NCBI GenBank assembly: GCA_013791995.1
Contig: VMSS01000024.1
Coordinates: 1 to 39,704, forward strand
Source of the DNA: Desulfurivibrio sp.
GTDB lineage: Bacteria > Desulfobacterota > Desulfobulbia > Desulfobulbales > Desulfurivibrionaceae
Length of the DNA: 39,704 nucleotides
Direction: 5' to 3'
Made by a program: the position numbers and the translations under genes. Positions 4,538-19,378 of the stretch are shown here, piece after piece; position 1 is the first letter of the stretch; each line of letters begins with the position of its first letter. The notes beneath the pieces are model-generated. The model saw only the letters and a list, made by a program, of their open reading frames with translations, did not search any database and had not been told where the DNA came from.

Positions 4538-6877
4538 TCAATCACCATGCAGCGGGAAACGGATCGCTATCCTGGCATATTTCCCTTCTTCCCCGGTGAT
4601 CGACAATAAGCCACCATGGTCTTCGACAATCCTGCGGCAGAGAGCCAGCATCCTCCCCCAACTCCCTGCCGAAAATTCCTTACCATGACTGAAGTCCAGC
4701 TGGGTTTCAGGAGGGACCACTGCTCCGAAATCCATGATGCTGATTTCAAAAATCCGCCCCTGGAAATTGTCCACGACAGTCTGTGTGGCAACGTTGATTT
4801 TTTTACGCGGGTCCCTGCCGGCATACCTCTCGCCAAGAGTGGCCCGAACGCTGTTGAGAATGCCTAAAAAAACCTGCTGCATTTCCTGGGCGTGCACCGG
4901 AATAACCGGCGGCTCAACCTCCAGGTCGGTCTCAACCTGGACGCCCTCGCTTTTCAGATGATAGCCAATGAGCAACAGGGCATCCTCCAGCACAGTGGAC
5001 ACAGGCAGAAACTCTCCTGCAGCCGAGCCTTCTTCCTGGCCATACAGGATGAACTTCCGGATTATTTCCGCAATGCGCTCACCGGTCTCAATGATTTTAG
5101 TAAGCAGCACGTTCTGCGGCTGCCCAGGCTTTTTAAGCTGTTCCTCATCGGCCAACACCTGCGCATAGTTGATCAGGCCGTTGCCAAGATCCCCCACCTC
5201 ATGCGAAACTCCACCGGCAAGGGCCGCAATCATCTCCAACCTCAGACTTGCCTCGCTCCCCCCGACACTGTCCTGCCGGGCAAGAGGATACCCCACCAGA
5301 ATCAACCGTTCAGACTCCTCGCCCATCTCCCGATCCAAGACAATTTTGCAGAGAAATTTTCGGGAAGGCGTGACTCCGGAAAACGCCAACCGAACCCCAT
5401 CCTCCGAGCGAAGTTTTTCCAACAGTTCGGGAGTGTCACTGGCCAGGCCGGATTGGATCGGCGTCAAAAAATCACGCCAGGAACGGCCGGAAAGCTGCGC
5501 GGCGTCAGAGCCTGCAATGCTTGCAAAAACAGGATTTGCGCCAAGGATATTTCCTGACGGAGTCAGGGTCAGCTGAATCACCCGCAAGGCCTCAAAAAGT
5601 CGGGCATGCAGATTTTCCCTGCTGGCCAGGTGCTGCTGCCCCTCAATAGTATGCAGGGCCAAGCCGAGATCGCCTGCAAATCCCTCAAGTAATTCCATCT
5701 CCTTGTTGTCAAACCCCGAGGGAGAAAGGGCATAGATGGAAAGCACGCCATAAGCGGTATTCTGCCAGATAATCGGCAAGGCGGCGCAGGCCGCATGCCC
5801 GTCGGCCAATGGTGTTCCCTTGAGCAACCCTTTGGGAATCCCCGCCAGGATATCCATCCGCACAACCGGAGCCCTGGAACGCAGCGCCAGCGCCGCAGGA
5901 TTTTGCTCCACCCCCTTTTCCTCAGCTTCAGTAAGCAGGATGGCCATGCAGGTTTCGCATTCCTTGTTGCTCATGGATGTCGCGCCATCGGCAGTCACCG
6001 GCATGACATCGCCACCCTCTTCGGCCTGCCCTATCCAGATCAGGCAATACTCGTGATTTGCAAGCAGGGCCCGGCACACTTCCTTGAACAGGGAATCCCT
6101 GGTCTTGCACTTGGCAATAGCCAGCTGCGCTCCCTTAACCGCCGAGGCAACCCGTTGAAACTTTGCCAGCCCCTGGGCCGTGATATCGCGGGCCATCAAA
6201 AGGTCGTGAAAGGAATAGGCCAGTTCCGAAACCTCCCCGCTTCTCCCGGGGATGGAAAGACCCGGCCTTACACCGGAGGCCACTTCTTTCACCTGCTGAA
6301 CAAGATCCAGCAAAGGGACAATCAGTCGCCTTTGGAAAAAAAGAAGCATGACAATGATCAGGCTGACCACCAGGGCCAAGGCACCGATCACCACATTCTG
6401 AAAACTGACCAGTTCGCGTTTACCGTGTTCGACCAGAACCCGGTCAAAGAGCATGAGCCGCTCTCCCAGTGTGCGTATTTCCGTATTGAGTTGTTTGAGT
6501 TGCTCAGGCCTGACCGGCCCGGCGCTGATCTTTCTCACGAGCAGGATAAGTCCGGGCAGGTCCGTGGCGTTGGCCAGGGTGAGCTTATAATGGTCGTCTA
6601 TGGACCGGTTCCCGATAATGGAAGCCAGATTCAGATTGAGCTCCTCCAGTTCCGCACTGACCGGAGTCAACCCAGCGTACTGCCCTTCAAGCAGATTTTC
6701 GGTTACATGTTCCCGGATGATGGCGAACTGGAAGATCAATTTTTCAGTCTGTCGGCTTACTTCCACATGACTGCGATACAATTGATATTGCCTGATTCCC
6801 AGGCCCAGCAGAGCCACAAGAATCAGCGCAACCGATACTGCTGTGGCATTGATTGTTTTTTTCAGCGGAAAGGCCAT
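4538..6877 (-). CDS. membrane sensor kinase-like protein with degenerate ATP-binding domain
   Basis: 779 residues from the ATG at 6877, 67 bp after nrfD. Membrane segments at about 8-27 and 162-182 flank a helical periplasmic sensor domain. Then follow HAMP (about 183-232), GAF (about 245-420, with CETC and several other Cys), a PAS-like part (about 425-545), a phospho-acceptor region and a HATPase fold. The H-box reads GVSHEVGDLGNGLINYAQ: His559 is kept but the usual HEINNP is changed. In the ATPase domain the N-box Asn survives (LNSVRATL), but the G1 box is MDFGAVV and the GTGLGL lid is replaced by SWGRML. It resembles the kinase at 16476-18518 in this part (shared NYAQVL, QQVFL, RYxGRD). 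I read it as a possibly inactive paralogue acting as sensor or modulator in the cytochrome operon. Confidence 0.8.
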   Translation of the reverse strand: MAFPLKKTINATAVSVALILVALLGLGIRQYQLYRSHVEVSRQTEKLIFQFAIIREHVTENLLEGQYAGLTPVSAELEELNLNLASIIGNRSIDDHYKLTLANATDLPGLILLVRKISAGPVRPEQLKQLNTEIRTLGERLMLFDRVLVEHGKRELVSFQNVVIGALALVVSLIIVMLLFFQRRLIVPLLDLVQQVKEVASGVRPGLSIPGRSGEVSELAYSFHDLLMARDITAQGLAKFQRVASAVKGAQLAIAKCKTRDSLFKEVCRALLANHEYCLIWIGQAEEGGDVMPVTADGATSMSNKECETCMAILLTEAEEKGVEQNPAALALRSRAPVVRMDILAGIPKGLLKGTPLADGHAACAALPIIWQNTAYGVLSIYALSPSGFDNKEMELLEGFAGDLGLALHTIEGQQHLASRENLHARLFEALRVIQLTLTPSGNILGANPVFASIAGSDAAQLSGRSWRDFLTPIQSGLASDTPELLEKLRSEDGVRLAFSGVTPSRKFLCKIVLDREMGEESERLILVGYPLARQDSVGGSEASLRLEMIAALAGGVSHEVGDLGNGLINYAQVLADEEQLKKPGQPQNVLLTKIIETGERIAEIIRKFILYGQEEGSAAGEFLPVSTVLEDALLLIGYHLKSEGVQVETDLEVEPPVIPVHAQEMQQVFLGILNSVRATLGERYAGRDPRKKINVATQTVVDNFQGRIFEISIMDFGAVVPPETQLDFSHGKEFSAGSWGRMLALCRRIVEDHGGLLSITGEEGKYARIAIRFPLHGD

Positions 6878-6944
6878 TTCAGTGTATCCGTCGGCAGGGC
6901 CGGAGACCCGGCCCTGCCATTCTCCATCAAAAATGATGGCGTCC

Positions 6945-8195
6945 TTATTTGGTTTCCTTCCAGGTGTAGAGGATCGGCATCCTGGCCAGAACCGCCCGAT
7001 AAACCACGATATAGGTGGCATAGACGGTGATGACGATCACCACTTCACGCCAGTGGGGAATTTCCTGGTACAATTGCCAGTTGAAGGTTATGAGCGCTGT
7101 ATTCAACCGGTTCAGAGCAAGGCCGAACACTGCCAGAAAGGCTCCGAAACGGGCCAGGGAAGCATTGCTGTTCCGCACGGCCATGGTGAAGACAATCAAC
7201 GGCAGAATAACTCCCACTACCATTTCAAACATGAACCACCCCCCCCAGCCGGTGGCCAGATACTGCCAATCGTTATCATGGGCAATGCCGATAATTTTGA
7301 TTACCAGATAGGTGATCAGTGCAAGGGAAGCGCCCTTTGCCAACCCCAGGGTCAATTTGCTCAGATTGTTTAAATAATTTTCATCACACCGCCAGCGCAT
7401 GAACCACTTGGTGAGGGTGCTGACCACAATGAGCATGGAAAGACCGGCAAAAACCGCGGAAACGAAAAAATGAAACCATTGAAAAGGGGAAGAGAACCAA
7501 AGCGGATGGACCTTACCCGGAGCATAGGTGAACAAAGCCCCCAGCGCCCCTTGGTGCAAGGTGGAGAGGATGATCCCTGCTATGGTCAGGCCGAGCACGA
7601 TACTCTTAATAAACTTCTTGGCCTTGGGAAAACCCATCCACTCCGAGAATGCCGGCACCAGTTCCGCCACTTGACAGGAAAGATAGGTCGCCACATGCCA
7701 AGCCACGAGAAAAAGAACCGCTGCCGGTCCCAGGGATACGAACATCGGATAAATCAAACGCCAGGGCTGACCAAGATCCACCTGAAGAAACACGACCGCG
7801 AACAGATAACCCAGCAATCCGTTCAGCAGGCCAAGTCGCTCAATGGACTTGAAATCCTTACGGCCAAAAAGCTCCACCGTGGTTCCCATCATAAAGCCGG
7901 ATGCGGAGAGCGGCACCATGACGAACAACCCCCAGCCCAGGAACAAACCCCACGGGTAGTCATAGGAGGAATGCGTGACCCAGCCAAGGCCAAAAATAAA
8001 ACGGCCAACCAGAATCGGCAGCCCAATTGCGTAAATGGCCCAGAGCACCCAGTTGAACGGGTTGCGCAACTGAACCGCCATATACTCTTTGGGGCTGAGC
8101 CCCAGCATTATCTTCTCTTTTACGGTCCATTCGCTCCCATCCTTCTTGCGATCGGAGACAACCGGGGCGAACCCTTGTGATTTTAAGCTATTCAT
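6945..8195 (-). CDS. NrfD/HybB-type integral membrane quinone-interacting subunit
   Basis: 416 residues with about ten hydrophobic segments. It belongs to the NrfD/PsrC superfamily, with HybB/HmcC-like features such as STLHQGALGALF and KVHPLWFSSPFQW. These proteins exchange electrons between the menaquinone pool and a periplasmic iron-sulfur partner. The N-terminus (about 1-45) is a cytoplasmic extension. The gene starts 16 bp after the ferredoxin gene, with GGAGAGGTGG upstream, so the two products very likely form a complex, joined to the pentahaem cytochrome. The overall plan resembles Hmc/Tmc/Hyb-type complexes of sulfate reducers, but there is no hydrogenase or other catalytic subunit nearby. 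Direction of electron flow cannot be told from sequence. Confidence 0.88.
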   Translation of the reverse strand: MNSLKSQGFAPVVSDRKKDGSEWTVKEKIMLGLSPKEYMAVQLRNPFNWVLWAIYAIGLPILVGRFIFGLGWVTHSSYDYPWGLFLGWGLFVMVPLSASGFMMGTTVELFGRKDFKSIERLGLLNGLLGYLFAVVFLQVDLGQPWRLIYPMFVSLGPAAVLFLVAWHVATYLSCQVAELVPAFSEWMGFPKAKKFIKSIVLGLTIAGIILSTLHQGALGALFTYAPGKVHPLWFSSPFQWFHFFVSAVFAGLSMLIVVSTLTKWFMRWRCDENYLNNLSKLTLGLAKGASLALITYLVIKIIGIAHDNDWQYLATGWGGWFMFEMVVGVILPLIVFTMAVRNSNASLARFGAFLAVFGLALNRLNTALITFNWQLYQEIPHWREVVIVITVYATYIVVYRAVLARMPILYTWKETK

Positions 8196-8211: not shown

Positions 8212-9138
8212 TCAGCTTTTATTATCTTCGTTTTTCAGGGCATCTTTCCGGTTGCTCAGTAAATAAAAACCGGTAAACAATGCGGGCCAAATGGTGAGCA
8301 CCATCGGCACTATCGCCAGGAACTCCTTGACATAGCTGATAATCGGCTGGTCGCCTAAATGGGTGTCATAGCCGATTTTGTCAAAGGGCACGTCGGAGAG
8401 ATACATCCAGGCAGTGCCGCCGACCTCTGTTTCGCCGTACACATGGTCCACGTAGGCTTCAGGATTCTGACCGATTCGCTGATGGGCAAGCTTGAGGAGA
8501 TCCTTCCGTTTACCGAAGGTCATGACCTCCTGGGGACAGGCCTCGACACAGGCAGGAGGTCTGCCGAACTTAAGACGGGTGTCGTAGCACATGATGCACT
8601 TTTTAACCACCGGGTTGATGGCACTGGAATAACTGTAAGCCGGAATATAAAAAGGACAGGCAATCATGCAGGTCCGACAGCCGACGCACACGGTCGGGTC
8701 GTACATAACCGCCCCTTCCGGCGTTTTTTTGTAGGCATTGACGAAACAGGAAGTCAGGCAGGCGGGTTCGTTGCAGTGATTACACTGCACCTTCCGAAAC
8801 AACGGGTGCTCCCGCCCTTCCACTTCGTACTTCTGCACCACGGTATAAGCTTTTTCCGTTGTTCTTCGCGGCAGCCCCCCTTCACGTTTTTCTTCAAACA
8901 CCGAAAGATCGTCGAATGGTTTATCCGGCGACTCCAACCCCTGCTCCTTGTTGCAGGCAGCTTCGCAGGTCCGGCAACCTACACATTTGGTAAGATCAAC
9001 AAGCACCCCCATGCTGTCCGGGTAACCGCCAAAGCTCTGCCCTGCAGCCCCGGCCTGTTTGCTTGTCCCGACGGCGGCGATGGCTGCGCCACCGGCCAAG
9101 CCGCCTTTCAAGAAACTTCTGCGGTTTAACATTTTCAT
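8212..9138 (-). CDS. Tat-exported four-cluster [4Fe-4S] ferredoxin subunit with C-terminal anchor (HybA/HmcB-like)
   Basis: 308 residues. The N-terminus NRRSFLKGG plus a hydrophobic stretch is a twin-arginine signal. Four cysteine clusters follow: CVGCRTCEAAC (about 53), CNHCNEPACLTSC (about 119), CVGCRTCMIAC (about 151), and CIMC with a later CVEACP. This is the DMSOR/Hyb-type ferredoxin arrangement holding four [4Fe-4S] clusters. A hydrophobic helix near 280-300 (VPMVLTIWPALFTGFYLL) would anchor it in the membrane facing the periplasm. It should carry electrons between the cytochrome and the NrfD subunit. A GAGGG lies eight bases before the chosen ATG; the next Met two codons on is an alternative. 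Confidence 0.9.
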   Translation of the reverse strand: MKMLNRRSFLKGGLAGGAAIAAVGTSKQAGAAGQSFGGYPDSMGVLVDLTKCVGCRTCEAACNKEQGLESPDKPFDDLSVFEEKREGGLPRRTTEKAYTVVQKYEVEGREHPLFRKVQCNHCNEPACLTSCFVNAYKKTPEGAVMYDPTVCVGCRTCMIACPFYIPAYSYSSAINPVVKKCIMCYDTRLKFGRPPACVEACPQEVMTFGKRKDLLKLAHQRIGQNPEAYVDHVYGETEVGGTAWMYLSDVPFDKIGYDTHLGDQPIISYVKEFLAIVPMVLTIWPALFTGFYLLSNRKDALKNEDNKS

Positions 9139-9312: not shown

Positions 9313-9834
9313 TCAATGCCCGGCCTTAGCGGTTGGAGCCGGAGCATATTTGCCGGAATTAAAAAAGGCGTCTCCTTTGTCGTTTCTGGTGTGACAATCC
9401 TGACAACCGGTCGGCCCGCCCATAGTGGTGTGGCAGCCAAGGCATTTTTGATGATACGCCCCTTTCAGGCCCAACTTGCCCTTGTGGTACATTTTCGGCG
9501 TTTCCTCGATTTTTGCCAGGTCTTCTGCGGAAAACCTTTTGTCCGAATGACAGTCTCTGCATGCAACGCTTCGTGATTTCCCTCCTGCTTCATGGCAACG
9601 GGCGCAGGTTGGATCGGTGGGTGACGCCCCGGTTGTGTGGTGATGGCACTCAGCACAGCTTGTTGCCACTCCGGTATGCATGGCATGATCAAATGTCACT
9701 GCGGAATAGTGGTTTGCCAGACTGCCGAGTTCCACCGAACCAGGGCCATCCCCGGCCCAACTCTGTGCGACAAGTGGCGCGGTAAGAAGCATCAGCGCCG
9801 CCATCCCCACGAGTGTCTTTTTTCTTCCTCCCAT
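9313..9834 (-). CDS. periplasmic pentahaem cytochrome c (class III / c7-like)
   Basis: 173 residues from the ATG at 9834, with AGGAG six bases before it; the longer frame to 9933 has no further support. A Sec signal peptide (about 1-27, ending SWAGD) is followed by five CXXCH haem-binding motifs: CAECH (60), CARCH (77), CRDCH (92), CLGCH (131) and CQDCH (144). FDHAMHTG (about 48-55) and other His residues can supply distal ligands. It has one more haem site than tetrahaem cytochrome c3. It is first in the operon with the ferredoxin and NrfD genes and is preceded by a sigma-54 promoter, so it should be the periplasmic electron donor or acceptor of that complex. Confidence 0.92.
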   Translation of the reverse strand: MGGRKKTLVGMAALMLLTAPLVAQSWAGDGPGSVELGSLANHYSAVTFDHAMHTGVATSCAECHHHTTGASPTDPTCARCHEAGGKSRSVACRDCHSDKRFSAEDLAKIEETPKMYHKGKLGLKGAYHQKCLGCHTTMGGPTGCQDCHTRNDKGDAFFNSGKYAPAPTAKAGH

Positions 9835-9973: not shown

Positions 9974-9990
9974 AGCACATCCTGTGCCAA
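9974..9990 (-). promoter_or_regulatory. sigma-54 promoter of the cytochrome/NrfD operon
   Basis: Read on the minus strand: TTGGCACAGGATGTGCT. It has TTGGCAC at -24 and TGC at -12, with exactly ten bases between the GG and GC dinucleotides. It lies about 140 bp before the cytochrome ATG, and a cluster of inverted repeats lies about 250 bp further upstream. Confidence 0.8.
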
Positions 9991-10210: not shown

Positions 10211-10263
10211 AAAAAAGTGTAGCATGCAACACATGTGGTGCCACATAAGTGTTGCATGCGACA
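10211..10263. promoter_or_regulatory. inverted-repeat cluster, candidate enhancer for the cytochrome operon
   Basis: Arms TGTAGCATGCAACAC (10218-10232) and GTGTTGCATGCGACA (10249-10263) pair with one mismatch; an inner dyad ATGTGG/CCACAT sits between them. Viewed as half-sites it is GTGTAGC-AT-GCAACAC followed by GTGTTGC-AT-GCGACA. The centre is about 252 bp upstream of the -24 GG at 9988. The same AAAAAGTGTNGC entry and GTGTNGC half-sites recur at 13166 and 14461. On the minus strand the dyad is followed by six T, 25 bp after the ftsH stop, so it may also or instead terminate ftsH transcription. Confidence 0.65.
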
Positions 10264-10287: not shown

Positions 10288-12096
10288 CTATCCAAGCAGC
10301 CCGGTTTGCACTGTATTTTCTTCACCCAGTGTATAGCAGGACAGGATGATATCGACCTCCTCCGCGTCAATGGTTTCATTGATCAGAAGAACTTCGGCCA
10401 GCTTGTGCAGGAAGGTTATTCTCCCTTCAAGGACAATCATTGCATCCTGATAGCATTCCGCTATGATCCTGGTGACTTCCTCATCAATCGCCCTGGCTAT
10501 TTCTTCGCTGTAGGGCCGCTGTTGCGAACCGTTGCCGAGAAAGCCCTGGTCACGAGTGACAAAAGCCCTTGGCCCAAGCCGTTCACTCATCCCGAATTGA
10601 CAGACCATCCGGGTGGCAATATCCGTGGCCGCCTGCAAATCGTTGCTGGCTCCGGTGGATAATTCATTGAAAATGATTTCCTCCGCCGTTCTGCCGCCAA
10701 GCAGAATGGTAATCCTGTTCGTCAGATATTCCTTGGAATAGGCATGGCGGTCATCAATGGGCACCTGTTGCATAACGCCCATGGCCTGACCTCTGGGAAT
10801 GATGGTAATCTTGTGTACAGGATCGGTGTTGGGTAAAATCTTGGCAATGATCGCGTGTCCGGCTTCATGGTATGCGGTAACTTTGCGCTGCTGTTCGTTG
10901 ACAACCAACCCCGTCCTTTCAACCCCCATGAGAATCTTGTCCTTGGCATCCTCGATATCGCTGAGCTGGATTCCTTCCTTACCCTTGCGCGCCGCCATCA
11001 GGGCGGACTCGTTGATAAGGTTGGCAAGATCGGCTCCGGTGAACCCCGGCGTGGACTGAGCCACAACCTGCAGGTCTACGTCCGCATCCATGAGTACCTT
11101 ACGGGAATGCACCTCAAGAATCTTGCGCCGCCCTTTCACATCAGGCGGCATAATGGTTACCTGACGATCGAATCGTCCCGGCCGCATCAAGGCCGGGTCC
11201 AGAACATCCGGTCTGTTTGTCGCGGCAACGATGATGACAGTCTGATCGCTCTGGAACCCATCCATCTCCACAAGCAGGGCATTGAGGGTTTGTTCCCGCT
11301 CATCCTGCCCGCCCATGGCCCCGGCGGCTCCGCGACTGCGACCCACAGCGTCTATTTCATCGATAAAAATAATACATGGCGCGCTTTTCTTGGCCTGCGC
11401 AAAGAGATCACGCACCCGTGAAGCACCGACCCCAACAAACATCTCGACAAAATCAGAACCGCTGATGCTGTAAAAAGGAACGCCTGCTTCCCCGGCAATG
11501 GCCTTGGCCAGAAGCGTTTTTCCTGTACCCGGTGGGCCTTGCAGCAAGACCCCTTTAGGAATTTTGCCGCCAAGCCGCGTGATTTTCTTTGAGTCCTTCA
11601 AAAAATCCACGATCTCTACTAGCTCTTCCTTTGCTTCCGGAATGCCTGCCACATCGTCAAAAGTCACCTTGCCGGCTTTTTCCGGATCCATGGCGATCTT
11701 TTTCTTGCCAAAACCGCTGGATCCGCCTTTCTGTCCGCGAAACATGAAAAACATCCAACCGCCCATGAGCAGCAGAACAGGAAAGGTGGATGACCAGAAA
11801 GGCGAAACCGCCCGGGGCGGTCCGGCAGAAATACGAATATTCTTGCTCTCAAGCCTGGGAATCAGATGCTGGACATCCGGCGCATAGGTCGAGAAGGACT
11901 GGCCAAAACTGTCAGTACCGAGGATCTCCTGACCCTGTATCCGCAGGTCCTGTATCTCATTATTTTCCAGCTTGGCAAGGAAAGCGGAATATTCCAGCAT
12001 GGGCAGACGGCTTTCAACAATCCAGACGTTGTACGCCACAACGGCCAGAGTTGCCGCCAACATGATCAACAGATAATTTCGCACGTATTTGGCCAC
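10288..12096 (-). CDS. ftsH: ATP-dependent zinc metalloprotease FtsH
   Basis: 602 residues. The GTG at 12096 is chosen because AGGAGG lies six bases before it; the ATG at 12126 would add ten residues and has no such site. Two membrane segments (about 7-28 and 102-120) flank a periplasmic domain. Next come the AAA+ module with Walker A GPPGTGKT (about 187-194), Walker B IIFIDEID, the second region of homology ([18 protein letters not shown]) and the protease site HEAGH. FtsH removes damaged or unassembled membrane proteins. The C-terminus is short compared with E. coli FtsH. It lies between two inferred sigma-54 units, and a sigma-54-like element precedes it. Confidence 0.95.
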
Positions 12097-12160
12097 GTTT
12101 TTCCTCCTGGGCAGGAATGAATGCAAGGCACGCTGAATGCGTCGGACAGCTTCCCACTAT

Positions 12161-12176: not shown

Positions 12177-12216
12177 TGCCTCTGTTCCAGCCTATCACTC
12201 CTCCGGGAAAAACAGC

Positions 12217-12243
12217 AAAAAAAAAGCCCGGGCGAACCCGGGC
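12217..12243 (-). terminator. Rho-independent terminator of cassette copy 1
   Basis: On the minus strand, a GCCCGGG/CCCGGGC stem with a four-base TTCG loop (12226-12243) is followed by nine T. It begins 24 bp after the stop of the 102-codon gene. Confidence 0.92.
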
Positions 12244-12267
12244 AAGGAAGGAGGTACTGCAAGGTTA

Positions 12268-12576
12268 TCAGCGTTGGCCGGGAACCGTAACCTTCGGGGT
12301 ATTGACATACTTGAAGAACACCGGGAATGCCGCGAAGAAGGCGACACAGACCAAGTACTCAACGCCTTTGATGTGAGTGTAAAAATCAACCAAGGTGGCC
12401 TGCTCACCGATCAAGCCGATGGCCACCATATACTGCCGCACCACTTCGCTCAACCCTGCCTTGGAAAGACTGAAGCTTAAAGCGGCAAGTGCCCACAACC
12501 CTACAACAGCTCCCAAGCCACCCATTATTGCCATGAAAATTCCTGCGCCCTTCCTATCCGTCATTGCCTTTTCCAT
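12268..12576 (-). CDS. unrecognised 102-residue two-helix membrane protein, copy 1
   Basis: 102 residues, with AAGGAG upstream of the ATG. A polar start (MEKAMTDRKG) leads to hydrophobic segments at about 11-37 (GIFMAIMGGLGAVVGLWALA) and 74-92 (EYLVCVAFFAAFPVFFKYV). Between them is an amphipathic loop containing SKAGLSEVVRQYM and DFYTHIKGV. The protein is identical to that at 13558-13866 although the DNA differs at several synonymous sites, which shows purifying selection and a real coding gene. I do not recognise the family. Sigma-54 control shared with the cytochrome operon suggests a role near that membrane complex, by inference only. Confidence 0.85.
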   Translation of the reverse strand: MEKAMTDRKGAGIFMAIMGGLGAVVGLWALAALSFSLSKAGLSEVVRQYMVAIGLIGEQATLVDFYTHIKGVEYLVCVAFFAAFPVFFKYVNTPKVTVPGQR

Positions 12577-12648
12577 GATATTTCTCCTTGTTGAATTCGA
12601 TTGCTTTCTTATGATCCGATGACCGCAACCTTATTATCTTTAGCCTTA

Positions 12649-12863
12649 TCACATACCCGTTACTGCGGTGAGCCAGCTCCGACCCAGTTCCAAGATTCCA
12701 CCCATGGTGCTGATTCCGCCGATCAGGCAGGCAATTCCCCATGCGCCGATCAAAGTTGCCAGGGCAAGAATGACACCGACACCTGCCTGGGAGATTCCCT
12801 CACCGATTGCTGCTTGATCAAGTTCGCCAAGACCGAGTCCCTGCTTTGTATTGCGTTCTTCAT
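12649..12863 (-). pseudogene. frameshifted copy of the 71-residue membrane protein gene
   Basis: The ATG at 12863 has a good AGGAGG, as in the intact copy at 13936-14151. The block is 215 bp instead of 216: near codon 6 it reads CAAAGCAGGGACTC where the intact copy reads CAAAAACAAGGACTC. From the ATG the frame shifts and stops after about 37 codons. The original frame downstream is still open and still encodes GLGLGELDQAAIGEG, the GAWGIACLIGG helix and the same C-terminus, but it has no in-frame start after the upstream TAG. Several substitutions next to the deletion argue for decay over a simple read error. Confidence 0.8.
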
Positions 12864-12931
12864 GGTGAGCCTCCTATGGGTTTGTTTTTTCGCTTTTATC
12901 ACGATGTTTGTTTCATTTGACTAGGAGACAT

Positions 12932-12948
12932 TGCACACGGTGTGCCAA
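12932..12948 (-). promoter_or_regulatory. sigma-54 promoter of cassette copy 1
   Basis: Minus strand TTGGCACACCGTGTGCA: TTGGCAC at -24, TGCA at -12 and ten bases between GG and GC. It lies about 70 bp before the ATG of the frameshifted small gene. The same 17 bases occur at 14220-14236. Confidence 0.85.
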
Positions 12949-13165
12949 CACAATCCATGTCACTTCGTAAAATTTCCAAAACAAACCGACAACTACCTGA
13001 TTACACATGAAATAAAAATAAAGGCTTTTAAGTGGAAGAAATTAACGCAAAACATCGTTCTTTAAAAAAGCTTCACAATATCGGCAAGTTATGTTGTTTA
13101 CACGAATACACTTGGGGGACAGAAACAACAGGGATTTTCAGGAAGATGACGGGTGGGAAAACGCA

Positions 13166-13247
13166 AAAAGTGTGGCGCAAAGGATTAAGGTGCCACACTT
13201 TTGTTGTCAGATGTGTAGCAAAGTGTCGCGCTTGCAACACTTTGCTA
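13166..13247. promoter_or_regulatory. paired inverted repeats, candidate enhancer for cassette copy 1
   Basis: Dyad A has 11-bp perfect arms AAAAGTGTGGC (13166-13176) and GCCACACTTTT (13192-13202) with a 15-bp spacer. Dyad B has 11-bp perfect arms TAGCAAAGTGT (13216-13226) and ACACTTTGCTA (13237-13247) with a 10-bp spacer. Half-sites of the form GTGTNGC/GCNACAC occur at 13170, 13192, 13213, 13223 and 13234. The dyad centres lie about 238 and 285 bp upstream of the -24 GG at 12946. No gene ends here: the cassette copy 2 terminator is 260 bp away, so termination is not an obvious role. Confidence 0.7.
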
Positions 13248-13383
13248 TTCCAAGGCAAATGTCTTTATCTCCCTGGAAAGATGCTGCGGCCAAGGTCCAG
13301 TAGACATTCAGAACCAAACAGTGGCACTGACATTACTGCTTGAGCTTGAAAAACAGGTTTTCAACTTTTCTTCCATCACCTCC

Positions 13384-13412
13384 AACCAACCCCTTAAAAC
13401 CAGGGGTTGGTT
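13384..13412. repeat. isolated hairpin in the gap between cassettes
   Basis: Arms AACCAACCCC (13384-13393) and GGGGTTGGTT (13403-13412) form a perfect 10-bp stem with a nine-base loop. On the plus strand a T-rich but interrupted tract follows, so it could be a weak terminator for rightward transcription. No plus-strand gene is seen here. The rest of the gap 13248-13503 shows nothing I can support. Confidence 0.5.
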
Positions 13413-13506
13413 TCCTTTTGTATTGCTTCTTCCAAGAGACGCAATAAAGAAACTGCGAACAACAGAAGAGTCTCCCCATCACTTTCTCCGAAATTCCCGG
13501 ATGAGC

Positions 13507-13533
13507 AAAAAAAAAGCCCGGGCGAGCCCGGGC
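13507..13533 (-). terminator. Rho-independent terminator of cassette copy 2
   Basis: On the minus strand, a GCCCGGG/CCCGGGC stem with the loop CTCG (13516-13533) is followed by nine T. It begins 24 bp after the stop of the 102-codon gene, exactly as in copy 1. Confidence 0.92.
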
Positions 13534-13557
13534 AAGGAAGGAGGTCCTGCAAGGTTA

Positions 13558-13866
13558 TCAGCGTTGGCCGGGAACCGTAACCTTCGGGGTATTGACATAC
13601 TTGAAAAACACCGGGAATGCCGCGAAGAAGGCGACACAAACCAAGTATTCAACGCCTTTAATGTGGGTGTAAAAGTCAACCAGAGTTGCCTGCTCACCGA
13701 TCAGGCCGATGGCCACCATATACTGCCGCACCACTTCGCTCAACCCTGCCTTGGAAAGACTGAAGCTTAAGGCGGCAAGTGCCCACAACCCGACAACAGC
13801 TCCCAAGCCACCCATTATTGCCATGAAAATTCCTGCGCCCTTCCGATCCGTCATTGCCTTTTCCAT
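13558..13866 (-). CDS. unrecognised 102-residue two-helix membrane protein, copy 2
   Basis: Its 102 residues are identical to those of copy 1 (12268-12576): same start with AAGGAG upstream, same two hydrophobic segments and same basic C-terminus. The gene follows the intact 71-codon gene by 69 bp and precedes a strong terminator, so the pair is a self-contained bicistronic unit. Retention of two identical proteins suggests dosage matters, or that the copies answer to enhancers of different strength. I do not recognise the family. Confidence 0.87.
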   Translation of the reverse strand: MEKAMTDRKGAGIFMAIMGGLGAVVGLWALAALSFSLSKAGLSEVVRQYMVAIGLIGEQATLVDFYTHIKGVEYLVCVAFFAAFPVFFKYVNTPKVTVPGQR

Positions 13867-13935
13867 GATATTTCTCCTTGGTGATTCAGTTTTTTTCTAT
13901 GATCTGAAGTGATCGAAACCTTGTTTTCCGTTTGT

Positions 13936-14151
13936 TTACATCCCGGTTACTGCGGTGAGCCAACTCCGGCCCAACTCCAGGACCCCACCCATGGTGCTCA
14001 TTCCACCGATCAAGCAGGCAATGCCCCATGCGCCGATCAATGTTGCCAAGGTAAGGATGACACTTACACCTGCCTGGGAGATTCCCTCACCGATTGCTGC
14101 TTGATCAAGTTCGCCAAGACCGAGTCCTTGTTTTTGCATTGCGTTCTTCAT
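13936..14151 (-). CDS. unrecognised 71-residue small membrane protein, intact copy
   Basis: 71 residues from an ATG with AGGAGG eight bases upstream; the Met at 14190 would add a stretch absent from the other copy. The N-terminal part is soluble and Gly-rich (GLGLGELDQAAIGEG). A hydrophobic segment at about 24-50 (VSVILTLATLIGAWGIACLIGG) follows, then GGVLELGRSWLTAVTGM. It contains one Cys in the helix. The decayed copy at 12649-12863 differs by only a few conservative residues (M/I, V/I, S/G, T/A). It is transcribed with the 102-residue protein from a sigma-54 promoter. The family is unknown to me. Confidence 0.82.
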   Translation of the reverse strand: MKNAMQKQGLGLGELDQAAIGEGISQAGVSVILTLATLIGAWGIACLIGGMSTMGGVLELGRSWLTAVTGM

Positions 14152-14219
14152 GGTGAGCCTCCTATAGATTTGTTTTTTCGCTCTTATCACGATGTTTGTT
14201 TCATTTGATTAGGAGACAT

Positions 14220-14236
14220 TGCACACGGTGTGCCAA
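14220..14236 (-). promoter_or_regulatory. sigma-54 promoter of cassette copy 2
   Basis: Minus strand TTGGCACACCGTGTGCA, identical to the copy 1 promoter, with ideal GG-N10-GC spacing. It lies about 70 bp before the 71-codon gene. Upstream sequence to 14460 is AT-rich and unlike copy 1; I see no gene there. Confidence 0.85.
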
Positions 14237-14460
14237 CAGGGGTTCGGATTCAGTTGGTAATTTTCCAATCCACACATGTAAGTGTTTAATTATAAAAGAA
14301 ATAAAAAAACAAAGACCTTTGGGGAGCACAATAGGTAGACTCTGGAATACAAACAGAAAAAGAACTGTAATATCGGAAACTTACAGGCAGTCTACAGGGA
14401 AAATCGAGGACACAGAAAAAAGGAAGAGTGGCAGGGTATGCGACAAAGGGAAGAGGACCA

Positions 14461-14542
14461 AAAAGTGTGGCACGGAAGAGTGTCGCGCCACACTTTTGCT
14501 GTGAGATGTGTAGCAGGGTGTTGCATGCGCAACACTCTGCTA
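14461..14542. promoter_or_regulatory. paired inverted repeats, candidate enhancer for cassette copy 2
   Basis: Dyad A has arms AAAAGTGTGGC (14461-14471) and GCCACACTTTT (14487-14497), spacer 15. Dyad B has arms TAGCAGGGTGT (14511-14521) and ACACTCTGCTA (14532-14542), one mismatch, spacer 10; its core GTGTTGCATGCGCAACAC is itself a dyad. Arm lengths, spacers and the distance between dyads equal those at 13166-13247. Centres lie about 245 and 292 bp upstream of the -24 GG at 14234. The last bases overlap the stop codon of the activator gene, so on the minus strand the cluster could also act as its terminator (T5 follows dyad A). Confidence 0.7.
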
Positions 14543-16327
14543 TTCGAGACCGTAACCCTTCATCTTGCGATACAGGGTGCTTCGATCGATACCGAGCAGT
14601 CTGGCAGCTTTGGCCTTGTTGCCGTCGGTCTGGGCGATGATGCTGAGGATATGCGCTTTCTCACTCTCCTGCGAGACAGGGGGAGAGCTCCCCCTATTAG
14701 CGGCAGCCTCAAGTTCAACTCCGGAATATCCTGGTGTTGCACCAACGGTGCGACCGCCGGTGCGAACCTCTTCGGGAAGATTGCCTGTGGTGATCGTGTC
14801 GTCCGCGCACAGCACACAGGCCCGCTCCACCACATGTTCCAATTCGCGCACATTTCCCGGCCATCGATAGGCACCAAGCAGTTGCAAGGCCTGATCGGAA
14901 ATCCCGGTGATATTCTTGTTCAACCGCTTACTGAACCGAGCCAGAAACAATTCCACCAGGATGGGCAGGTCACCATCCCGGTCCCTGAGCGGCGGCAGGG
15001 TGATATCAATAACTCGCAGGCGATAGTAGAGGTCCTCCCGGAACTCTCCCCGCTGGACTTTTTGTTTCAGGTCGGCATTGGTGGCGGCCACCACCCGTAC
15101 ATCTACGGTGACGGGCCTGTCCTCTCCAACCGGGTAGAAGGTGCGTTCCTGAAGAAAGCGCAACAGCCGTAGCTGCATGAGCGGTGAAATATCACCAATC
15201 TCATCGAGAAACAGGGTCCCGCCGTCCGCCTGAAGAATCCGCCCTTCCCGATTGCGATCCGCTCCGGTGAACGCGCCCTTCTTGTGACCGAAAAGCTCGC
15301 TTTCCATGAGGTTTTCCGGAATGGAAGTACAATCGAACTTCACCAGGGGCATGTCTCGGCGGGGACTTTCCGCATGGAGAGCCTCGGCCACCAGTTCCTT
15401 ACCGGTGCCCGATTCCCCGGTGATCAGAACCGAGGTGTCCACCTGGCCAACGTTTTCGATGAGGGTGTACACCGTCTGCATGGCACGGCTTACCCCGGCC
15501 AACCGGTGAAAATAGGTGCGCTTACCCCGTTTTTCAAGATCCTCCAGTCGACTCACATCGCGGAACACCAACACCACACCCAGAAAATCCTCGTTCTGCT
15601 GTCTTTCCAAGGGAGCAGCACAAAGGCGGAAAACAACATGACCGCCGGTTTCCAGGTTGACCTCGATACGATGTTCGCTCACCGCTTCCCGGCATTCCAA
15701 TACCTTCTGCGCATCGGTGGCGAACACGGTGAAGGGGTCGGCAACCTCTTCCAGGCTTGTGCCGATGGCAAGATCGGGTATATGCATTGCCGCCCACGTC
15801 TTGGCCTGATCATTCATCTGCACCACCCGCAGATCATGATCAACAGTAATAATCATATCCCGGACGCTGCGGAAAATCGTTTCCAGGTATTGCTGGGAGC
15901 GCTCTTTTTCCCCAGCCAGCCGTTCCTTTTCCTTCCACAAGGAATACTGCTGCAGGGCCATGCGTGCGGTACGCAACAGATCGGCTTTTTTCACCGGTTT
16001 GGCCAGATAGTCAAAAGCCCCAAGCCGCACCGCTTCGGAAGCAGTGTTGATATTGGGATAGCCAGTGACCATGACCATCGGACACTCCAAGCCCAACTCC
16101 CGGACCCGTCGCAGCAGATCGATGCCGGAAGCCCCATCCATGACGATATCACTGATAATCAAATCAAAGGTCTGCTGTTCAATGAATTCCATTGCCTCTT
16201 CAAAGGTCGAGGCGGTCACCACCGGACCATACCCTTCGCGACCGAGAAACATCTGGAAGGTCAACCGCAGGCTTTCCTCGTCGTCAACCACCAGTATCCT
16301 GGTCTCTGATTTGTCCAGATCAATCAT
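14540..16327 (-). CDS. NtrC-family sigma-54 response regulator (REC-PAS-AAA+-HTH)
   Basis: 595 residues from the ATG at 16327, with GGGGAG five bases upstream; the Met six codons earlier is less likely. The receiver domain (about 10-125) has ILVVDDEE and the phospho-acceptor Asp60 in LIISD. A PAS domain follows (about 145-260). The AAA+ domain (about 275-500) has Walker A GESGTGKE (304-311), the sigma-54 contact loop GAFTGA (351-356) and GGTLFLDEIGD. The C-terminal HTH_8 (about 560-592) has NKAKAARLLGIDRSTLYRK. It should activate sigma-54 polymerase by binding enhancers. The inverted-repeat cluster at its own 3' end and the matching clusters at 13166 and 10211 are its best candidate targets. 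The partner is probably the kinase encoded 148 bp upstream. Confidence 0.93.
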   Translation of the reverse strand: MIDLDKSETRILVVDDEESLRLTFQMFLGREGYGPVVTASTFEEAMEFIEQQTFDLIISDIVMDGASGIDLLRRVRELGLECPMVMVTGYPNINTASEAVRLGAFDYLAKPVKKADLLRTARMALQQYSLWKEKERLAGEKERSQQYLETIFRSVRDMIITVDHDLRVVQMNDQAKTWAAMHIPDLAIGTSLEEVADPFTVFATDAQKVLECREAVSEHRIEVNLETGGHVVFRLCAAPLERQQNEDFLGVVLVFRDVSRLEDLEKRGKRTYFHRLAGVSRAMQTVYTLIENVGQVDTSVLITGESGTGKELVAEALHAESPRRDMPLVKFDCTSIPENLMESELFGHKKGAFTGADRNREGRILQADGGTLFLDEIGDISPLMQLRLLRFLQERTFYPVGEDRPVTVDVRVVAATNADLKQKVQRGEFREDLYYRLRVIDITLPPLRDRDGDLPILVELFLARFSKRLNKNITGISDQALQLLGAYRWPGNVRELEHVVERACVLCADDTITTGNLPEEVRTGGRTVGATPGYSGVELEAAANRGSSPPVSQESEKAHILSIIAQTDGNKAKAARLLGIDRSTLYRKMKGYGLE

Positions 16328-16475
16328 TGCAGCTCCCCTGGTCATTCAAGACCCGCCGATGTGCACGGTTCAGTCTTGATGGATTGGTAAAAAATGAACT
16401 GCAGAAACATACCATTTTACTGCAACACGTTGTCTCTGCGTCATGGCATTACGTTTTTTAGTTCTTTCGCCGCCA

Positions 16476-18518
16476 TCATCCTTCATATGCCGGCAAGTCA
16501 ACAGTCAGGGTGGTGTGTTCGCCCAGTTCGCTCTCCACCCTGAGCTGCCCTTGAAAATCCTTAACCAACCCGGCGCTGATGGACAACCCCAGGCCGGTTC
16601 CTTCCCCTGGTTTCTTGGATGAGAAAAAAGGTTCGAAGATCTGGGAAAGAAGCTCTGGAGGGATTCCATCTCCATAATCAGTGATTTCCGTTCTCACTAC
16701 AGTGCGTCCTTGGCTCTGGACAGTCAAACAACGAATTTCCAGTTTTTTGCCGGAATCCCGTCCGGGATACCGCTGATTAAGGGCATACCGGGCATTGCTG
16801 AACAAATTAAGAAAAACTTGCTGCAACTGCTGTGGATGCACCCTGATATTCGGCAGATCCTCTGGAATATCGATGTGGATATTTACCCCGTCTTTCTGAA
16901 GCTGATGCTTTATCAGAGACAGAGAATCGCTGATGATCGCCCCAACCTCGACCACCTCGGCTTCCTCCTCCCGCTGGCGGGCAAAAAAGAGGAGATTGCG
17001 CACGATATAGGCGATCCGCTCCCCTTCCTTGATGATGCGGTCAAGCATCTCCCGTTGGGCTTTATTGCCAGCCTCGCCTTTTATCGGCCCCTGACTTGAA
17101 TCATCGAGCAGCACCTGGGCGTAATTGATAATGCCGTTGATGGGATTGTTGATTTCGTGGGCCACCCCGGCAGCCAGTTCGCCGATGGAAGCAAGCTGTC
17201 CGGCCCGCATTGTTTCGGCCCGATACATTTTTTCCTCGGTGACATCCCGCAGGAGAATCAGGGCCTTGGTCTTGCCATCGACATCGACAAATGGCACGTA
17301 ACTCTGCTCATAATGGCGGTGATCGGACATGATCTCTTCGGTTCTCTGAATCTCGTTGCTCTCGATGGCGGCATGCATACGGCATACCTCGCAGGGCTCA
17401 TCTCGCTGCTTATAGACCTCGTAGCATTTTTCACCGATCTTGTCGCCAAAGGTACGGCGAAGAATGTCGTTTTGGTATTCGATCTCGTAATCCCGATTGA
17501 GGATATGCATGCCATGATCAAGAGCTGAGAGAATTCCTCGGAATTTGTCCCGCTCCGTACGCAACTGTCTGTCGATACTCTGCTGCTCGGTAATATCGCC
17601 AAAGCTTTCCACTCCACCGATGACATTGCCGTGCGTATCCCGCAACACATCGGCATTTTTGCTGATAGTCCTCACCCGGCCGTCCTTGGTCCTGATCTCA
17701 CAGATCCGGTTGAGAATAGGCTTCTTGACCTTTTCCGAATACACGCCACAGCCTTTCACCGTGCAGGGATCCAAGGCGAAAATACTGCACGGCTTGCCGA
17801 GGACCTCAGCTTCCTTATATCCGGTTATATTTTCAGCTTTTTTGTTCCAACTGGTGATCTTTCTCTCGAGATCAACGGTGAAAATAGCGCTGGGAATGAC
17901 ACTGTAAACAAGTTCCGCCTGTTCGCAGGCCTGGAGAAGCTGGTCCTCAGCCCAGCGACGCTCATCGATCTCAAGGAGCAGGGCATCATTGACCTTTTTC
18001 AGTTCAAGAGTCCGTTCCTCAACCCGGTGCTCAAGATCATCATGGCTTTTTTTCAAGACCTCGGCTGCGAGATTCAACTCCGTGACATCACGCAAAATCT
18101 CGATAACCCCGAGAAGAGTATCTTTGTCTCCCAGGAGGGGAGAAGCAAACACCTCGTAATGACGGAGCTCGCCGGTCTTCAGGGTAATACTTTGAGACAC
18201 CGAGACGGCTTTGCCGGTTTCTAGAACCTCCATGAGCGGGCATTCGCGCCCGGCCTGAACACAGGCTTGCTCAGTGCCGAACAACACCCGATAACAATGC
18301 GAATTTTCGGAAAAGTTGCCATTGTCCGTCCGTGCAGCCGGGAAATCACGGGCTGCCTGGTTGATGAGTTTTACCCGCATATCCGTCCCGATCACCAGGA
18401 CAGGATCAGTCACCCCATTGATCACTGATTGCAGAAATCGGAGGTGATCCAGTAACATGCGGCCAATAGCCCGCCTGTCGTCTTTTGCGACCCTGCGTTC
18501 TTGCGTTTTCCATTTCAT
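16476..18518 (-). CDS. soluble multi-PAS histidine kinase, likely partner of the NtrC-type regulator
   Basis: 680 residues with no membrane segment, so a cytoplasmic sensor. It has PAS domains at about 25-145, 200-312 and 325-430, with a coiled coil at about 150-195. Cys-rich insertions occur in each: CYRVLFGTEQAC plus ECP in the first; PCSIF, PCTVKGC in the second; KCYEVYKQRDEPCEVC in the third. The H-box is GVAHEINNPINGI with His454. The ATPase has N-box LNLFSNARYAL, G1 DYGDGIP, the F-box FEPFFSSKK and G2 GTGLGLS, all intact. The gene starts 8 bp after the rhodanese-rubrerythrin gene and 148 bp before the response-regulator gene. The many paired cysteines fit redox, metal or sulfur sensing; the ligand is not known. 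Confidence 0.92.
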   Translation of the reverse strand: MKWKTQERRVAKDDRRAIGRMLLDHLRFLQSVINGVTDPVLVIGTDMRVKLINQAARDFPAARTDNGNFSENSHCYRVLFGTEQACVQAGRECPLMEVLETGKAVSVSQSITLKTGELRHYEVFASPLLGDKDTLLGVIEILRDVTELNLAAEVLKKSHDDLEHRVEERTLELKKVNDALLLEIDERRWAEDQLLQACEQAELVYSVIPSAIFTVDLERKITSWNKKAENITGYKEAEVLGKPCSIFALDPCTVKGCGVYSEKVKKPILNRICEIRTKDGRVRTISKNADVLRDTHGNVIGGVESFGDITEQQSIDRQLRTERDKFRGILSALDHGMHILNRDYEIEYQNDILRRTFGDKIGEKCYEVYKQRDEPCEVCRMHAAIESNEIQRTEEIMSDHRHYEQSYVPFVDVDGKTKALILLRDVTEEKMYRAETMRAGQLASIGELAAGVAHEINNPINGIINYAQVLLDDSSQGPIKGEAGNKAQREMLDRIIKEGERIAYIVRNLLFFARQREEEAEVVEVGAIISDSLSLIKHQLQKDGVNIHIDIPEDLPNIRVHPQQLQQVFLNLFSNARYALNQRYPGRDSGKKLEIRCLTVQSQGRTVVRTEITDYGDGIPPELLSQIFEPFFSSKKPGEGTGLGLSISAGLVKDFQGQLRVESELGEHTTLTVDLPAYEG

Positions 18519-18526
18519 TATCGTTC

Positions 18527-19378
18527 CTACTTACCCTCCAAAGGGCTTACGCCTTGGCTCAACACCTTGTCCATTTCGTCGGCCAGATAGGACAGGTGCA
18601 TCTTTTCTTCGTCCGCCAGTCGTAAAAACAATGCTCTGGCTTCGCTTTTTTCACTCTTTTGCCCCATGCGGCTGTACAGGTCAAAAGCCTGGGTCTCAAG
18701 GGCCATGGCCAGTTCCAGAATATCCCGCTTGGTGTGCAAGTGGGCATCAACCCGGGCAAGAAAATCTTCCACCCTGCCGCCGCCCTCCATGAGCCCGGCC
18801 ACCCCCTTCTCCGGCATGGCCTCGGGCCCGTGCGCCTGCCGGTACTCGGCAAGCAGCCGGGCCTTGTGCTTATCCTCAAAACCCATCAGCCGGGTATAAA
18901 GTTGCCGTTGTTCCGCATCCTGCACCCGCCCGGCCATGCTCCGGTAAAATTCCTGCAACCCGTCTTCCATGGCGTAGGCCAGACTTACCCCATCCTCGTA
19001 CTCTTCCTGCCCGGTAAAAAATTCCAAGCCAGCCTCTTCCGGCCCGCTGGCCTGATGACCTTGCCAGGCCTTGATGCCTCCAGCCATATTGTAAACGCTT
19101 GCAAAATCCTTGCCAGCGAGCAGCTGAGCCGCAGCTTTACTTCTGCCACCGACAGCGCAATAAACAATAACCGGCTTCTCCTTTTCAAGCTCACCAAGCC
19201 GCCCAGGCAATTCCTTGAGCGGAATGAGAATTGCCCCGGCCAGATGCCCCTGCTCATACTCCTTGGGCTGCCGGACATCCAGCAACTGATACGCGTCCGC
19301 ACTCCGCCCTTCCATGTACTCCTTTGCCTGGGCCACACTGAAATCCTCGCCCGGCACAAACAAATTTTTCCAGTTCAT
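18527..19378 (-). CDS. rhodanese-rubrerythrin fusion protein
   Basis: 283 residues. The N-terminal rhodanese domain (about 10-108) has LLDVRQPKEYEQGHLAGA and an active-site loop YCAVGGRSK with Cys74, which would carry a persulfide. The C-terminal ferritin-like domain (about 120-275) is rubrerythrin-like, with metal-ligand-type Glu/His motifs such as YAMEDGLQEFY, FEDKHKARL, ALETQAFDLY and ADEEKMHLSYL. There is no C-terminal rubredoxin domain. Such fusions join sulfur transfer and diiron peroxide chemistry. Its gene lies in a run with DsrE-like, sterol-desaturase-like and kinase genes. Confidence 0.88.
   Translation of the reverse strand: MNWKNLFVPGEDFSVAQAKEYMEGRSADAYQLLDVRQPKEYEQGHLAGAILIPLKELPGRLGELEKEKPVIVYCAVGGRSKAAAQLLAGKDFASVYNMAGGIKAWQGHQASGPEEAGLEFFTGQEEYEDGVSLAYAMEDGLQEFYRSMAGRVQDAEQRQLYTRLMGFEDKHKARLLAEYRQAHGPEAMPEKGVAGLMEGGGRVEDFLARVDAHLHTKRDILELAMALETQAFDLYSRMGQKSEKSEARALFLRLADEEKMHLSYLADEMDKVLSQGVSPLEGK

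Follow-up and report, generated by a model that had tools for sequence, protein, structure and literature searches.

The window analyzed here is a stretch of 39,704 nt from the genome of a sulfur-metabolising Desulfurivibrio sp. (contig VMSS01000024.1). It contains two tandem copies of a small operon, both minus-strand, which span 12214-12950 and 13504-14238. The copies align in three ungapped blocks of 95, 89 and 95% identity, which bears out the tandem duplication claimed in an earlier note on this DNA. Read on the minus strand, each unit comprises a sigma-54 promoter, two frames of 71 aa (A) and 102 aa (B), and a terminator. The earlier note had credited each copy with a promoter, two genes and a terminator; the promoters and terminators stand, but the second intact gene does not, as the downstream A is frameshifted. 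A summary of the features is presented in Table 1.

Table 1. Features of the two A-B units and of the neighbouring genes in the window.
Feature	Position	Strand	Remarks
HmcC-like (NrfD family) membrane subunit	6945..8195	-	
HmcB-like Tat-exported 4Fe-4S subunit	8212..9138	-	
Pentaheme cytochrome c, periplasmic	9313..9834	-	five CxxCH
Sigma-54 promoter, cytochrome-HmcB-HmcC operon	9974..9989	-	
Candidate activator half-sites before cytochrome operon	10217..10255	-	palindrome GTGTAGCATGCAACAC at 10217-10232
FtsH-family membrane protease	10288..12126	-	conserved in cluster
Intrinsic terminator, downstream copy	12226..12243	-	7-GC-pair hairpin + T9
B, downstream copy	12268..12576	-	102-aa two-helix membrane protein, HmcD-like C-terminal half
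A, downstream copy	12651..12863	-	71-aa-type gene, frameshifted as read by 1-nt deletion near start
Sigma-54 -24/-12 promoter, downstream copy	12932..12947	-	GG-N10-GC, TGGCACACCGTGTGCA
Candidate activator-site cluster	13170..13240	-	five GTGTNGC half-sites incl. palindrome GTGTCGCGCTTGCAACAC
Intrinsic terminator, upstream copy	13516..13533	-	7-GC-pair hairpin + T9
B, upstream copy	13558..13866	-	identical 102-aa protein
A, upstream copy	13936..14151	-	intact 71-aa single-TM protein, paralogue of B N-terminal half
Sigma-54 promoter, upstream copy	14220..14235	-	GG-N10-GC, TGGCACACCGTGTGCA
Candidate activator-site cluster	14465..14535	-	six GTGTNGC half-sites incl. palindrome GTGTTGCATGCGCAACAC
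Sigma-54 response regulator (receiver-PAS-AAA-Fis HTH)	14540..16345	-	probable regulon activator
Multi-PAS histidine kinase	16476..18518	-	probable partner of response regulator

The tandem units and the identity of their B proteins

The source genome has no B genes other than these two. The same A-B-A-B arrangement is carried by two other species-level genomes of the genus, G002 (L094/L095, read in part across a contig break) and G005 (L096), which makes an assembly artefact an unlikely source of the duplication. The downstream A gene lacks one base near its start, at about 12845 (ATACAAAGC vs. ATGCAAAAAC), and reads MKNAIQSRDS...PWQL*. Since A is intact at both positions in G002, the defect is either a frameshift of recent origin or an error in the sequence of the source MAG. 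A frameshift bypass or an alternative start was considered and rejected: there is no ATG, GTG or TTG after the in-frame TAG and before the conserved region, and the gene is therefore taken as broken or as a sequence error. As read, the two units have just one intact A gene between them.

The two B genes differ at 13 nucleotides, all 13 of the differences being synonymous (neutral probability ~6e-9), and encode identical proteins, as the earlier note had reported. Between the B genes of the source genome and G002, 26 of 26 changes are synonymous (neutral probability ~3e-17). The synonymous difference per site (pS) between B copies is 0.18 in the source genome and 0.14 in G002, vs. 0.36-0.49 between these two genomes, whose spacers are alignable. 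Among the multi-copy genomes tabulated across the order, the nearest relative of 27 of 32 B genes lies within its own genome. The lower pS within than between the two genomes is what would be expected under homogenisation following an ancestral duplication; independent later duplications are a less likely alternative. Because all changes are synonymous while the copies cluster by genome, the identity of the B proteins reflects both purifying selection and within-genome homogenisation. The strong constraint previously proposed is supported for B, but its extension to both copies is only half true, since homogenisation plays a part and the downstream A gene is broken.

A and B as a protein family

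Matches to B were found in 87 of 146 related genomes at E <= 0.1, often as tandem or dispersed copies, and in 74 of 142 genomes at E <= 1e-8, the set used for the co-occurrence analysis below. A-B pairs and A-A-B operons occur throughout the order Desulfobulbales, with up to seven A-B copies per genome. The A-A-B operons, as at L043, L045 and L048, have two A genes followed by one B. An alignment of 37 B proteins has 14 invariant columns and the core LVDFYTHIKGxEYLICVAFFxAFPxF.

Searches of Pfam and of PDB sequences with A and B gave nothing significant, and no repeat, pilin or antenna family was matched in the profile and Pfam searches; a pilin-like match (NF045849, E 0.19) was dropped, as it was seen in 2 of the 37 members only. 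The statement that these proteins belong to no recognised family thus holds for Pfam but not for profile comparison. The HmcD model NF045712 matches the C-terminal half of 36 of the 37 B proteins (best E value 2.5e-6) and has matches in 55 of 142 related genomes vs. none of 14 control genomes at E <= 0.01. The HMM-HMM comparison that the earlier note had proposed as a check, run with hhalign, gave different answers for the two proteins. B matches HmcD with probability 96.9 and E 1.9e-10, the HmcD profile being built from 20 proteins that match the HmcD model and adjoin HmcC or HmcB, whereas the control comparison of the A family with HmcD gave 6.5. The alignment to HmcD covers residues ~55-95 of B and takes in the DF..HTKG..Y stretch found where the helix starts. 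A instead matches the N-terminal half of B (96.7%), of which it is a paralogue. In the reverse search, a B profile recovers canonical HmcD genes beside HmcC/HmcB, at coordinates equal to those of the HmcD-model matches.

These profile comparisons show the C-terminal half of B to be homologous to HmcD. The B protein of the window scores 14.8 bits against NF045712, below the curated cut-off of 34, and the best A-B relative about 31 bits; since its score falls below the cut-off, B is named HmcD-like, not HmcD. Other classes of the phylum contribute nine loci (L083-L090 and L093) at which a 53-77-aa HmcD-like homologue of B, matched to it at 99.75%, directly precedes the cytochrome-HmcB-HmcC genes. 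Adjacency to hmcB/hmcC within the redox operon is confined to these short homologues; the A-B genes of Desulfobulbales lie near hmcB/hmcC but separate from them, and are sometimes unlinked.

Single-chain AlphaFold models of A (helices 12-53 and 57-69) and B (helices 5-40, 42-52 and 69-91) are all-helical and of modest confidence (pLDDT 72 and 67), and a Foldseek search with the B model gave no PDB match. The models are compatible with the one or two membrane helices assigned earlier; as a check on the two proteins alone, structure prediction yielded helices only.

Neighbouring redox genes and shared promoter sequences

The A-B units are flanked on one side by the regulator and kinase genes (14540-18518), and on the other by FtsH, the cytochrome and the HmcB-like and HmcC-like genes (12126-6945), a neighbourhood that recurs across the order. 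A rhodanese-rubrerythrin fusion-like protein (18527-19378) adjoins the sensor kinase here and is present in two other loci of the genus. The FtsH-family gene (10288-12126) is embedded in the redox cluster, beside the pentaheme cytochrome operon, order-wide. Directly after the HmcC-like gene, with conserved synteny, is a second histidine kinase (4538-7021), which may sense the redox or quinone state of the complex.

The cluster holds the components of a broadly defined Hmc/Nhc-type complex: a periplasmic multiheme cytochrome, a Tat-exported 4Fe-4S protein and an NrfD-like membrane protein. Exactly five CxxCH motifs are present in all 33 of the 33 cytochrome homologues inspected, other classes included, and the cytochrome is therefore distinct from those of Hmc (16), Nhc (9) and Ohc (8). 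The HmcB-like and HmcC-like proteins of the window are homologous to their namesakes but score below the equivalog cut-offs (412.6 bits vs. 420 and 353.8 bits vs. 550, respectively). No HmcE or HmcF gene was identified among the neighbours examined, and the cytochrome is not 16-heme.

In 15 of 21 long loci, the distance from A-B to the complex genes is at most about 8 kb. Among 142 relatives, B and the HmcC orthologue occur together in 72 genomes, B only in 2, HmcC only in 11 and neither in 57 (Fisher 1e-25, uncorrected for phylogeny); joint absence recurs inside several genera that otherwise have both. Some A-B copies are far from the complex genes, and in G063 six A-B loci were read, with seven search matches and one HmcC.

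Of 54 A genes, 47 have a sigma-54 site 64-96 bp upstream, where 0.02 would be expected, and five of the seven that have none are second A genes within A-A-B operons. (A search for sigma-70 promoters returned 1 site vs. 2.4 expected and was disregarded.) GTGTNGC half-sites, a pattern first spotted in the window and then tested at other loci, occur at a mean density of 3.0 per 360 bp before A genes vs. a background of 0.25. In the window, each of the three promoters has such sites 223-311 bp upstream of its -24 element. The half-sites and a sigma-54 site also precede the redox operon in three genomes that have A-B elsewhere (G063, G028 and G041; L097-L099). The perfect palindrome occurs four times in the 2.96-Mb genome: once at each of the two A-B units, once at the cytochrome operon, and once elsewhere. 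This fourth occurrence (C100, flanked by genes for a Kup-like transporter and an ankyrin-repeat protein) is likely due to chance, since a reversed control pattern also gives about one. The DNA-binding helix (HTH) of the response regulator is nearly invariant across the order, and we infer that this protein (14540-16345) binds the GTGTNGC sites. Taken together, synteny, co-occurrence and shared regulation back the link to the NrfD subunit that the earlier note had hinted at.

Possible role of A and B in a pentaheme redox complex

Homology to HmcD, synteny, co-occurrence and shared promoter and activator-site sequences lead us to propose, with a probability of roughly 0.7, that A and B are small integral-membrane subunits of a pentaheme Hmc-type complex for periplasm-quinone redox exchange. 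The complex would consist of the pentaheme cytochrome c, the HmcB-like Fe-S protein and the HmcC/NrfD-like protein. In Hmc, Nhc and Qrc, an Fe-S/NrfD module connects menaquinone with the cytochromes of the periplasm (PMC8076601, PMC6303296, PMC4215793). By analogy, the pentaheme complex may transfer electrons between the menaquinone pool and c-type cytochromes of the periplasm, in one direction or the other. The short HmcD-like gene that heads the redox operon in other classes suggests an ancestral four-gene operon as the source of B. In the lineage of the Desulfobulbales this gene would have left the operon and gained an A-like N-terminal segment, and A-B would have become a separate sigma-54-driven unit, amplified for dosage. 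B would take the place of HmcD, with its HmcD-like helix docked on HmcC/HmcB and, judging from the charge pattern, its invariant-rich VDFYTHIKGxEY stretch at the periplasmic face of the membrane; A would pair with the A-like helix of B via a common G-W-A/C-L helix. The adjacent kinase/response-regulator pair would activate A-B and the redox operon jointly through the GTGTNGC sites. However, HmcD homology gives B a place, not a mechanism, and the subunit reading is weakened by the A-B copies outnumbering the complex, an excess that a strict 1:1 subunit does not need.

The surplus copies suggest a high dosage or an oligomeric arrangement. A and B might assemble into an oligomer, abundant in the membrane, that surrounds the pentaheme complexes or lies between them, as a scaffold that orders them in arrays; this is an unlikely proposal, but it would account for the two related helical modules and for tandem amplification and homogenised copies vs. 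single-copy catalytic genes. It is doubtful that A and B oligomerise independently and in excess, as a ring, filament or antenna-like array merely co-regulated with the complex. Several features would suit such an arrangement: the many copies, both in tandem and dispersed, that have sigma-54 promoters, their homogenisation within genomes, the related single-helix modules of A and B and the A-A-B operons. A subunit, however, accords better with the homology to HmcD and with the place of the gene in the operon of other classes, and the searches described above matched neither protein to a repeat, pilin or antenna family.

It is also improbable that A and B are adaptors, inhibitors or substrates of FtsH, forming a module of membrane quality control by which the redox complex is tuned or protected. 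Small membrane modulators of FtsH, of similar size, exist in other bacteria, and A-B directly adjoins an FtsH paralogue in this genus and several families; against this, the HmcD-like genes that occur in other classes are part of the redox operon, FtsH was not found at any of those nine loci, and HmcD homology indicates the complex itself. A tandem duplication of recent date that gene conversion has homogenised, with nothing further to explain, would agree with the clustering of copies by genome, their lower pS within than between genomes and the broken A gene. We regard this account as very improbable in view of the wholly synonymous differences in both comparisons and the order-wide conservation of the A-B family and its promoters; gene conversion as the sole cause of the identity is ruled out, although homogenisation contributes.

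For A and B as subunits of the pentaheme complex, several known systems provide comparisons, and the kind of system, an Hmc/Nhc family complex under sigma-54 control, is already known. Like B, HmcD of the Hmc complex (HmcABCDEF) is linked to HmcC/HmcB-type subunits, but it has 43-62 aa and one helix and is encoded beside hmcC, whereas B has ~100 aa and an extra A-like helix and is encoded with A in an operon of its own that has been multiplied. Hmc also differs in having the 16-heme HmcA, HmcE and HmcF, compared to the five-heme cytochrome of the window. Nhc (NhcABCD), a Tp1c3:quinone oxidoreductase, is similar in its subunit list of a cytochrome, a 4Fe-4S protein, an NrfD-like protein and a D subunit, but its cytochrome has nine hemes rather than five (PMC8076601). 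Ohc (OhcBAC) resembles the present system in the control of a cytochrome/Fe-S/membrane redox operon by a sigma-54 EBP (DVU3142) and EBP sites; it differs in its octaheme OhcA and heme-b OhcC, and A-B genes are absent from its description (PMC4641369). The closest published parallel is the TMH1-DsrOhPh-tetrahaem locus of cable bacteria, where a small TM protein lies beside cytochrome, Fe-S and NrfD-family genes, in the same order; as described, that locus has a tetraheme cytochrome and an NrfD protein near DsrP, and TMH1 is reported as unique to cable bacteria (PMC13047784). No description of the fused, detached and amplified A-B pair, or of the pentaheme complex, was found in the open-access literature searched.

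No role is known for HmcD-type subunits; the pentaheme complex is conserved through the Desulfobulbales and beyond, in other classes of the phylum. Assigning these duplicated small membrane proteins, an order-wide family, to one sigma-54 regulon with the complex makes the inducing signal, the role of the subunits and the excess of copies testable, and the cable bacteria, of the same order, have a similar unexplained locus with small-TM, NrfD and multiheme genes.
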